From positions 916,986 to 980,985 of the forward strand of contig NZ_JACVQB010000001.1 of assembly GCF_018881575.1 (NCBI RefSeq): a stretch of DNA of 64,000 nt, written 5' to 3'. The notes under the pieces were generated by a model, which was not told the origin of the DNA, searched no databases, and was given only the letters and a program-made list of their open reading frames with translations. This DNA comes from Polynucleobacter sp. UK-Kesae-W10 (GTDB lineage: Bacteria; Pseudomonadota; Gammaproteobacteria; Burkholderiales; Burkholderiaceae). Position 1 is the first letter of the stretch. Every line of letters begins with the position of its first letter. Made by a program: the position numbers and the translations under genes. Shown here in pieces: positions 503 through 26,281 of this stretch.

Positions 503-1777
503 ATGAGCTCTAATCAGTCACCCCTCCCAAAGCTACCTTTAGGCCCAGCGCCGAAGCGCGCTACTCGCCAAGCTAAGGTTGTTTGGCAGTCAAACATCAT
601 CACTGTCGGTGGTGATGCTCCGGTACGTGTGCAGTCCATGACCAATACCGATACGGCTGATGCAGTGGGTACCGCAATACAGGTGAAAGAATTAGCGCGT
701 GCGGGTTCAGAGATGGTGCGTATTACCGTCAACACACCAGAGGCTGCAGCAGCAGTTCCTTATATTCGTGAGCAGTTAGACAAGATGGATGTTTTGGTGC
801 CCTTGATTGGCGACTTCCATTACAACGGCCACACTTTATTAAATGATTACCCCGATTGCGCGAAGGCTCTATCGAAGTACCGCATCAATCCTGGCAATGT
901 CGGTAAGGGCGCGAAGCGAGATCCTCAGTTTGCGCAGATGATTGAGGCAGCTTGCAAATATGACAAGCCTATTCGCATTGGAGTCAATTGGGGCAGCTTA
1001 GATCAAGATCTACTGGCATCCATCATGGATAGCAATGCTGCATTGGCGGTGCCTAAGACAGCGCAAGAGGTGATGATTGAGGCTTTAATTCAGTCAGCAC
1101 TACAGTCTGCAGAAAAAGCGGTTGAGTTGGGAATGAATCCTGATCAAATTCTGCTTTCTTGCAAAGTCAGCAATGTGCAAGACTTGGTTGCGGTATATCG
1201 CGATCTTTCGCGTCGTTCTGACTATCCCTTGCATTTAGGTTTAACCGAAGCAGGCATGGGTAGCAAAGGAATTGTCTCTTCTACAGCGGCCATGGGTATT
1301 TTGTTGCAAGAGGGTATTGGCGACACGATTCGTGTTTCATTAACGCCAGATCCCGGTGCTCCGCGTGAAAATGAAGTGATTGTTGCCCAAGAAATTTTGC
1401 AGACCATGGGATTGCGTAACTTCACTCCTATGGTGATTGCCTGTCCCGGCTGTGGCAGAACAACTAGTACGACCTTCCAGGAGTTGGCTGCCAATATTCA
1501 ATCGTACTTACGTCAGCAAATGCCGATTTGGAAGAAAACCCATCCAGGTGTTGAGAATATGAACGTGGCTGTGATGGGCTGCATTGTGAATGGTCCTGGC
1601 GAGAGTAAGCATGCCAATATTGGTATTTCATTGCCGGGAACGGGTGAAACACCAACGGCACCGGTATTTGTGGATGGCATTAAAGTGAAGACACTGCGTG
1701 GTGACAATATTGCCCAAGAGTTTCAGGTCATCGTAGACGACTATGTCAAACAGCACTATGCCACTAAGTCTGAATAA
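503..1777 (+). CDS. ispG: IspG, 4-hydroxy-3-methylbut-2-en-1-yl diphosphate synthase
   Basis: IspG (GcpE) converts methylerythritol cyclodiphosphate to HMBPP, the penultimate step of the MEP isoprenoid pathway, using a [4Fe-4S] cluster. The three cluster cysteines are visible: Cys314 and Cys317 in CPGCGRTT and Cys360 in [10 protein letters not shown]. The N-terminal TIM barrel has [11 protein letters not shown] and NPGNVGKG. The 424 residues are longer than the 372 of the E. coli protein, as usual in betaproteobacteria. The ATG lies 10 bases after rlmN and 23 bases separate it from hisS. In many Burkholderiales a rodZ/pilW-type gene sits between rlmN and ispG; here there is none. Confidence 0.97.
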
Positions 1778-20265: not shown

Positions 20266-20352
20266 TGGTGCCCAGGAAGGGACTCGAACCCCCACAACCT
20301 TACGATCGCCAGCACCTGAAGCTGGTGCGTCTACCAATTTCGCCACCTGGGC
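20266..20352 (-). tRNA. tRNA-Leu (anticodon CAG)
   Basis: On the minus strand the sequence begins GCCCAGGTGGCGAAATTGG, has an anticodon stem CCAGC/GCTGG closing the loop TTCAGGT (anticodon CAG, reading CUG), a long class II variable arm (CGATCGTAAGGTTG region), the T loop GGTTCGAGTCC, and an acceptor stem GCCCAGG/CCTGGGC. The discriminator A and 3' CCA are encoded (20266-20269). Long variable arm and anticodon agree on leucine. Confidence 0.96.
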
Positions 20353-25030: not shown

Positions 25031-25741
25031 ATGAATCAGGATCAACTCAAACAGATGGTAGGTGAGGCAGCCCGCGATGAGGTCTTAAAGCTGCCTGCTG
25101 GGCAAATCTTGGGCGTAGGCACCGGCTCCACTGCGAATTGCTTTATTGATGCGCTTGCCCCCTACAAGAGTCATTTTGCTGGAACGGTCTCAAGCTCAAA
25201 TGCCACTACTGAGCGTTTGTTAAAGCATGGCTTCAAAGTGCTGGATCCAAATGATGTTCAAGGCTTGCCAGCCTACGTGGATGGCGCAGATGAGATTGAT
25301 CCTGCTGGACACATGATTAAAGGCGGCGGCGGCGCATTGACTCGCGAAAAGATTATTGCCTCGATGGCAAAGCAATTTATTTGCATTTGTGATTCTTCAA
25401 AACAGGTGCCTGTATTGGGTAACTTTGCGCTCCCTGTAGAAATCATTCCACTGGCTAAAGGTGTGGTGAGTAGGGAACTTGAGAAATTGGGTGGTAAGGT
25501 TTCTCTTCGTTTGGCTAAGAACACTCGCGCCGATCTCCATCAAACTCCGAGTGAGCCTTTTGTAACCGATAATGGCGGGTGGATTTTGGATATTGCTGGC
25601 TTGCAAATTGCCAATCCCCTGCAGATGGAGGCGCAAATCAACCAAATTGCGGGCGTCATCACGGTAGGCTTGTTCGCGAAAGAAAAGGCGAATATCTTGT
25701 TGGTCAGCAATGCCTCTGGCGTTGAGCGCCTTGCTCTCTAA
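25031..25741 (+). CDS. rpiA: Ribose-5-phosphate isomerase A
   Basis: RpiA interconverts ribose-5-phosphate and ribulose-5-phosphate. The 236 residues show GVGTGSTANCFIDAL (phosphate/substrate loop), SSSNATTERL, YVDGADEID with the catalytic acidic residues, and KGGGGALTREKI. Length fits the family (219-230). Promoter should lie in the 93-base gap shared with tal; the terminator structure at 25754-25787 lies just after the stop. Confidence 0.97.
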   Translation: MNQDQLKQMVGEAARDEVLKLPAGQILGVGTGSTANCFIDALAPYKSHFAGTVSSSNATTERLLKHGFKVLDPNDVQGLPAYVDGADEIDPAGHMIKGGGGALTREKIIASMAKQFICICDSSKQVPVLGNFALPVEIIPLAKGVVSRELEKLGGKVSLRLAKNTRADLHQTPSEPFVTDNGGWILDIAGLQIANPLQMEAQINQIAGVITVGLFAKEKANILLVSNASGVERLAL

Positions 25742-25753
25742 TTACTGAAAGAT

Positions 25754-25787
25754 AATAAAAAACCCGACGGGGTATGCCCATCGGGTT
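25754..25787 (-). terminator. Terminator shared by rpiA and the small-RNA candidate
   Basis: Stem AACCCGA-C-GGG / CCC-A-TCGGGTT with one internal mismatch and a small loop. Read on the minus strand it is followed by TTTTTTATTAT, a good U tract; on the plus strand the tract is only TTGTTT. It therefore looks best suited to end the minus-strand RNA and may also end rpiA. Confidence 0.8.
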
Positions 25788-25916
25788 GTTTGCCATGGTA
25801 TGCATGGCGCAGGCACTCGGAAGGTATTTCGTTCCTTAGCCTATAAGCGCATAGATGCGCTTATTTTTACTGGCTTTCGCCAATGTGGCGGGGCACTATT
25901 ACTGCCTCACCACGAT
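25756..25916 (-). ncRNA. Candidate structured small RNA, no known family recognised
   Basis: On the minus strand a strong promoter (25920-25948) would start an RNA near 25913-25916 that ends at the terminator near 25756, about 160 nt. I can fold by eye: hairpin 1 (25885-25913), GTGGTG-A-GGCA paired with TGCC-C-CGCCAC around a 7-base loop; hairpin 2 (25870-25883), TGGC-GAAA-GCCA with a GNRA tetraloop; hairpin 3 (25843-25864), 9 bp ATAAGCGCA/TGCGCTTAT; a weak AAGG/CCTT hairpin; hairpin 5 (25792-25808), GCCATG/CATGGC; then the terminator. No ORF with a start and ribosome site is apparent. It does not look like 6S, tmRNA, SRP or RNase P RNA to me. Confidence 0.65.
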
Positions 25917-25919
25917 TAC

Positions 25920-25948
25920 ATCCTATGCCTGTGTTTTTAGTGTGTCAA
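25920..25948 (-). promoter_or_regulatory. Sigma-70 promoter of the small-RNA candidate
   Basis: Minus strand: TTGACA (25943-25948), 17-base spacer, TAGGAT (25920-25925). Upstream of the -35 there are A/T tracts (about 25950-25980) that resemble an UP element. This is the best -35/-10 match I noticed in the window, and it does not serve any protein gene. Confidence 0.75.
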
Positions 25949-25981: not shown

Positions 25982-25999
25982 GCTGTATTGCAATACAGC
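25982..25999. repeat. 18-bp perfect palindrome downstream of the yggX gene
   Basis: GCTGTATTGCAATACAGC reads the same on both strands. It begins 10 bases after the stop of the YggX gene. No T run follows in either direction, so it is not a typical terminator; it sits about 35 bases upstream of the small-RNA -35 and could be an operator or a transcript-end hairpin. Confidence 0.5.
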
Positions 26000-26008
26000 G
26001 ATAACGCT

Positions 26009-26281
26009 TTACTCTGCTGGGGGTACGTAGCCTTGGGCCATATCTGCCCCGCCTTCAAAGAAGTATTTCTCAACCTGCTTTAAAAGGTATTGGCGTGCGC
26101 GTGGATCAGCCATGTTCAGGCGGTTTTCATTAATCAACATGGTTTGTTGCTTTAACCAAGCAGCCCAAGCTTCTTTGGAAACTTGATTCCAAATCTTTTT
26201 GCCCAATTCGCCAGGAAGTGGGGCGAAATCCATGCCTTCGGCTTCCTTATTGAGTTTGATGCATTGAACCATGCGTACCAT
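26009..26281 (-). CDS. YggX family, probable Fe(2+)-trafficking / oxidative damage protection protein
   Basis: A 90-residue protein with the YggX pattern: Cys near the N-terminus ([15 protein letters not shown]), [19 protein letters not shown], and [25 protein letters not shown]. In enterics YggX limits oxidative damage to iron-sulfur proteins. The ATG at 26281 is used; an internal ATG three codons later also exists. It follows argA (start 27678, end 26314) by 32 bases on the same strand, so it is probably in the argA transcript. Confidence 0.93.

Follow-up and report, generated by a model that had tools for sequence, protein, structure and literature searches.

HRC-28-1 of Polynucleobacter: a structured RNA with a conserved promoter of its own, and probably a free-standing small RNA

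A structured RNA between yggX and rpiA

Polynucleobacter species are among the commonest bacteria of the freshwater plankton, and their genomes are small (~2 Mb). We analyzed a stretch of 64,000 nt, hereafter the window, from the 2.04 Mb genome of Polynucleobacter sp. UK-Kesae-W10 (GCF_018881575.1, contig NZ_JACVQB010000001.1, positions 916,986 to 980,985). A structured non-coding RNA lies on the minus strand of this window, behind yggX on the same strand and opposite the convergent rpiA. The features, in window coordinates, are as follows; two-sided changes are base pairs in which both partners have changed among the yggX-linked relatives or, where stated, in a wider set of sequences.

26009..26281, minus strand: yggX (Fe(2+)-trafficking protein; PF04362, E 3.5e-42), the upstream gene, on the same strand as the RNA
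25943..25948, minus strand: −35 element TTGACA, its first five bases invariant in 53/53 relatives
25920..25925, minus strand: −10 element TAGGAT, mean majority frequency 0.99 (53 relatives)
25754..25913, minus strand: structured non-coding RNA (HRC-28-1); fold z −7.0, covariance model 176 bits, covariation
25885..25913, minus strand: P1, 10 pairs over 11 positions with one mismatch; conserved apex A-G-N5-G-U; two-sided changes in 6/10 pairs
25871..25882, minus strand: P2, GNRA-capped (GAAA, GCAA or GUAA in most members); a few others have it replaced or lack it
25843..25864, minus strand: P3, 9 pairs, UYNN tetraloop, invariant A-U closing pair; two-sided changes in 5/9 pairs (53 sequences), 8/9 in the wider set
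25811..25842, minus strand: P4, composite hairpin with P5 inside; two-sided changes in 3/4 pairs, 4/4 in the wider set
25819-25835, minus strand: P5, within P4; two-sided changes in 1/4 pairs, 3/4 in the wider set
25792..25808, minus strand: P6, 6 pairs, 100% paired; two-sided changes in 4/6
25761..25787, minus strand: intrinsic terminator stem, 11 pairs
25754..25762, minus strand: U tract; the RNA ends in six U
25031..25741, plus strand: rpiA (PF06026, E 1.4e-53), the convergent downstream gene
~6564, plus strand: Hfq gene

The RNA is present once in the host genome. An earlier note on this DNA had seen no reading frame here, and indeed no ORF of at least 60 aa overlaps the RNA on either strand; the short ORFs within it show no conservation. 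The same note had set the RNA apart from 6S, tmRNA, SRP and RNase P RNA and had named the Rfam covariance models as a check: no family of Rfam 15 reaches its gathering score for the RNA, nor does anything appear at permissive thresholds, and an identity with 6S RNA was rejected because the 6S RNA of this genome is located elsewhere than 25754-25913. The sole other RNA gene that Rfam matched within the window is a tRNA-Leu (CAG) at 20266-20352 on the minus strand.

The RNA had been taken for an unnamed one, but it has already been published as HRC-28-1 (Brewer et al. 2021, RNA Biol., PMC8632094). As the published account gives it, the motif has 33 examples, mostly from Polynucleobacter, with a PRK05408 gene (yggX) upstream, an opposite rpiA downstream, and six stems of which the last is a terminator; it was judged an unlikely riboswitch and was proposed to be a structured element in the 3′-UTR of the upstream gene. 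Here yggX (PF04362) and rpiA (PF06026) stand in the same order and orientation, six stems end in an intrinsic terminator, and the hosts are again mostly Polynucleobacter. Judged by location, architecture and host as reported there, the RNA at 25754-25913 is HRC-28-1. Within the literature covered by a text search, this name occurs in PMC8632094 only.

Fold, terminator and covariation

The minus-strand sequence 25754-25914 (161 nt) folds at −72.7 kcal/mol, compared with −44.5 ± 4.0 for dinucleotide shuffles, and none of 200 shuffles folded as well. The plus strand of the same segment also folds well (z −5.9), as is expected of hairpins. The stems described earlier, at least five hairpins, are all there, and the composite P4/P5 brings the number to six. 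Of the 159 positions of the consensus, about 58 are left unpaired and are spread over short stretches. The RNA is predicted to be stable, since closed hairpins contain or adjoin nearly all of its bases, those at both ends of the molecule included. A mutual-information analysis of the 53 sequences gave no coherent helix beyond the known ones, whether as further pairs or as pseudoknots. The U tract behind the terminator stem (25787-25761) is better on the minus than on the plus strand, as had been noticed, and the terminator likely serves the convergent rpiA as well.

BLASTN located the RNA in the genome of the window and in 54 others of the genus, with no convincing match beyond it. Compensatory changes among these relatives, proposed earlier as a check, were found in an alignment of 53 full-length yggX-linked sequences (A1; consensus structure of 47 pairs): 20/47 pairs have two-sided changes, 98.6% of pair cells are kept, and 0/500 shuffles did as well. 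When the partners were slid by 1-3 columns as a control, pairing was 36-39%. Each helix has at least one compensated pair except P2, whose stem sequence is nearly invariant in this set and whose GNRA loop is kept in most members. A wider set of 27 sequences that includes diverged copies (A2), fitted to the model and hence biased towards structure, has two-sided changes in 34/47 pairs (179 such cells versus 47 in shuffles), and here all six hairpins show covariation.

P2 is also the most replaceable stem. It is deleted in one sequence (L158, genome G226, 1606-1749), and a longer unrelated hairpin is found in its place among L054, L156 and L157.

These alignments bear on the reading that the locus holds a bare terminator with chance structure around it, or a DNA repeat. 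In keeping with a bare terminator, rpiA shares this terminator, which is also kept in genomes that lack the RNA, but both forms of the reading are refuted by the covariation, which extends to all six hairpins in the wider set and, among the yggX-linked sequences, to every hairpin except P2. A repeat is further contradicted by the single copy in the genome, and we give this reading practically no credence.

A conserved promoter upstream of the RNA

The TTGACA-N17-TAGGAT promoter that had been proposed on the minus strand is present (25948-25943 and 25925-25920) and is conserved across the 53 relatives. By count, the region has no more promoter-like sites than chance would give (2 found, 2.3 expected), so that evolutionary evidence is needed, and it is conservation that puts this pair above chance. 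TTGAC has a majority base frequency of 1.00 in the 53 yggX-linked members, compared with 0.55 for the spacer and 0.57 for the 20 nt ahead of the promoter. The two elements are spaced by 17 nt in 41/53 members, as they are in the window, and by 16 nt in the other 12/53. The −10 element matches the consensus in 4/6 positions, and its two non-consensus G are kept almost everywhere. The A/T tracts that had been seen upstream reflect A/T-rich DNA that is general in the family, the 24 nt ahead of the −35 element averaging 73% A+T.

From the position of the −10 element we infer a transcription start at 25913, an invariant G seven bases downstream, which would agree with the 5′ end near 25913-25916 that had been predicted. 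Depending on the relative, the −35 element lies between 14 and 74 nt behind the yggX stop. Between yggX and the promoter of the window (25983-25998) lies a perfect 16-bp palindrome, CTGTATTGCAATACAG; as a similar sequence occurs in only 3/53 relatives, it lies outside the RNA unit. We also looked for a wider regulon with the same promoter, and none is visible, since TTGAC-N16-19-TAGGAT has 3 sites in the genome versus 4 for the reversed control.

Distribution and copies at other loci

A second covariance model matched 127/186 Polynucleobacter genomes (E ≤ 0.001). Other Burkholderiaceae gave weak matches of up to 44 bits, the eleven inspected being terminators behind coding frames, and an order-wide scan for the RNA returned nothing convincing. 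A pattern made of the promoter and P1 found 61 stretches in 84,980 species genomes, which come from Polynucleobacter or from betaproteobacterial or Burkholderiaceae MAGs, bar one cyanobacterial MAG; the latter was rejected as a chance match because it lacks any match to the covariance model. In viral contigs the pattern found none. As far as searched, the RNA thus appears by sequence to be confined to Polynucleobacter. Polynucleobacter necessarius PPGSP2 (L160 / L245) has the RNA intact, as well as its promoter and every stem.

The covariance model further identified diverged full-length homologues (42-108 bits; L146-L155 and L180) at about five loci away from yggX:

Between a PIN-domain gene and a polyketide-cyclase-like gene: genomes G069, G178, G209, G150, G063, G161 and G054
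Next to a divergent LysR gene: G011
Next to a divergent ChrR-cupin-like gene: G210
Two loci in G212: one behind hemW, the other next to a divergent TctC gene

All of these copies start with GUGG or GUGA just after a −35/−10 pair spaced by 17 nt, so that promoter, six stems and terminator recur as a unit. At the PIN-gene and hemW loci the RNA is again behind a co-directional gene. At the LysR, cupin and TctC loci (L152, L154, L155) the upstream gene points away, which makes read-through from that gene impossible and requires a promoter of the RNA's own. A still more diverged candidate of 55 bits (L181, genome G220, 1252-1425, minus strand) is preceded by a promoter-like pair, TTGCCA-N17-CAGAAT, and the ORF upstream of it is divergent.

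Several genomes, conversely, carry yggX but not the RNA. RNA-less yggX-rpiA junctions were found in G191 (L118), G186 (L117) and G088 (L121); G191 retains the 3′ half of P6 plus the terminator, G186 a terminator only. Since it has been lost from some genomes, the RNA is not essential to the genus. In a tree of RpiA and YggX, most genomes with alternative loci belong to a clade that is sister to the main one (support 0.92-0.98), and a basal clade yielded no RNA; the three losses (G186, G191, G088) and the relocated copy of G011 fall inside the main clade. By this placement the RNA is at least as old as the split of the main and sister clades and has moved together with its promoter.

An independent RNA or part of the yggX message

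Two readings of HRC-28-1 can be weighed against these observations. The published suggestion is a structured 3′-UTR element of the yggX mRNA, which would protect or regulate the message in cis or be released from it by processing (PMC8632094, as far as that account sets it out). It fits the position of the RNA just behind yggX on the same strand in most genomes, with no evident yggX terminator between, and the terminator that is kept where the RNA is lost. Against it stand a near-invariant promoter between yggX and the RNA, copies away from yggX, three of them with a divergent upstream gene, and the persistence of yggX without the RNA. An RNA that is always part of the yggX message would have neither a promoter of its own nor copies elsewhere, and by this sequence evidence we consider the published reading improbable.

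The other reading, a free-standing small RNA of about 160 nt, was that of the earlier note, and it draws support from the conserved promoter and from the unit recurring at other loci. The RNA has a promoter of its own, as judged from sequence, an intrinsic terminator, and no conserved ORF. In the mechanism that we propose, this sigma-70-type promoter would start the ~160-nt RNA and its own intrinsic terminator would end it; the RNA would fold into six consecutive hairpins and act away from its site of synthesis. Leaving aside its mode of action, we consider it highly probable that HRC-28-1 is a free-standing RNA acting in trans. Since no clear yggX terminator precedes the RNA, transcription likely also continues into it from yggX, and in most genomes some yggX messages probably end at the terminator of the RNA. 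The 3′-UTR idea may therefore describe a second, minor source of the RNA where it follows yggX.

Possible mode of action

Bases common to nearly all copies, the diverged ones among them, are found at both P1 ends, in the terminator, and at the tips of P1, P3 and P5. The conserved tips, A-G....G-U (P1), A-U..-U (P3) and A-C...-U (P5), consist of the closing pair and the edge bases, while the loop interiors are among the most variable parts of the RNA and differ between clades. No unpaired stretch of at least 7 bases, as a seed of the Hfq type would offer, is conserved family-wide.

As the tips are conserved while the loop interiors vary, recognition of the tips is suggested rather than one long antisense seed, since such a seed ought to be conserved better than any other unpaired part. 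Our tentative preference, which we hold at somewhat less than even confidence, is that the RNA is recognised by its shape at the P1, P3 and P5 tips by an RNA-binding protein or complex.

Competing with this, as another form of the free-standing RNA, is an antisense sRNA dependent on Hfq, whose exposed loops (P5 CNAAAU.., P1, A-rich linkers) would pair with mRNAs while Hfq holds the U tract. Hfq is encoded in the window, as had been pointed out, the RNA ends in six U, and accessible loops exist. Pfam searches of the host genome matched neither ProQ (PF04352) nor CsrA (PF02599), both of which gave matches in control genomes, and with Hfq present this leaves fewer candidate RNA chaperones. The variable loop interiors and the lack of a conserved unpaired stretch of at least 7 bases count against pairing of this kind, which we find possible and rank slightly below tip recognition. 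A role as a ProQ client was rejected, as no ProQ was found in the genome.

The multi-hairpin, stand-alone architecture would also suit a CsrB/RsmZ-like decoy for CsrA. Each RNA has on average 0.01 unpaired GGA motifs, and with no CsrA found by Pfam the decoy is refuted unless a CsrA unlike the Pfam model exists; we regard it as scarcely credible.

Returning to tip recognition, fewer partners come into question given the conserved tips and the apparent lack of ProQ and CsrA. A wider proposal is that a genus-specific RNA, moving with its promoter and present in most lineages, shows three hairpin tips to a protein partner and thereby represents a new class of mode of action in a bacterium without detectable ProQ or CsrA; this we consider doubtful. 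In the literature covered by a text search, only two papers describe structured RNAs from Polynucleobacter, and an independent, conserved and relocating RNA in this genus would correct the published 3′-UTR reading of HRC-28-1.

Comparison with known systems

Among Rfam families the match of lowest E is anti-hemB (RF02837, Burkholderia RNA 7), with a weak likeness in the last two hairpins and the terminator (18-21 bits); it reaches 18.4 bits against a gathering score of 49.5, over only 81 positions and at chance-level E (0.24 and 0.7). 6S RNA (RF00013) is alike in length and in being a stand-alone gene, but it is one long hairpin with a central bubble, whereas the RNA here is a row of hairpins. 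Decoys of the CsrB/RsmZ type share the row of hairpins and the own promoter and terminator; unlike them, the RNA lacks exposed GGA motifs, and its genome has no CsrA match. The closest system is HRC-28-1 as published, with 33 examples and a suggested place in a 3′-UTR in the account available (PMC8632094), compared, in the present analysis, with more than 120 genomes, a promoter of its own that is conserved, and diverged copies at other loci. What is new, on the evidence of sequence, is this promoter and the recurrence at several other loci, by which HRC-28-1 would be reassigned from a 3′-UTR element to an independent sRNA.
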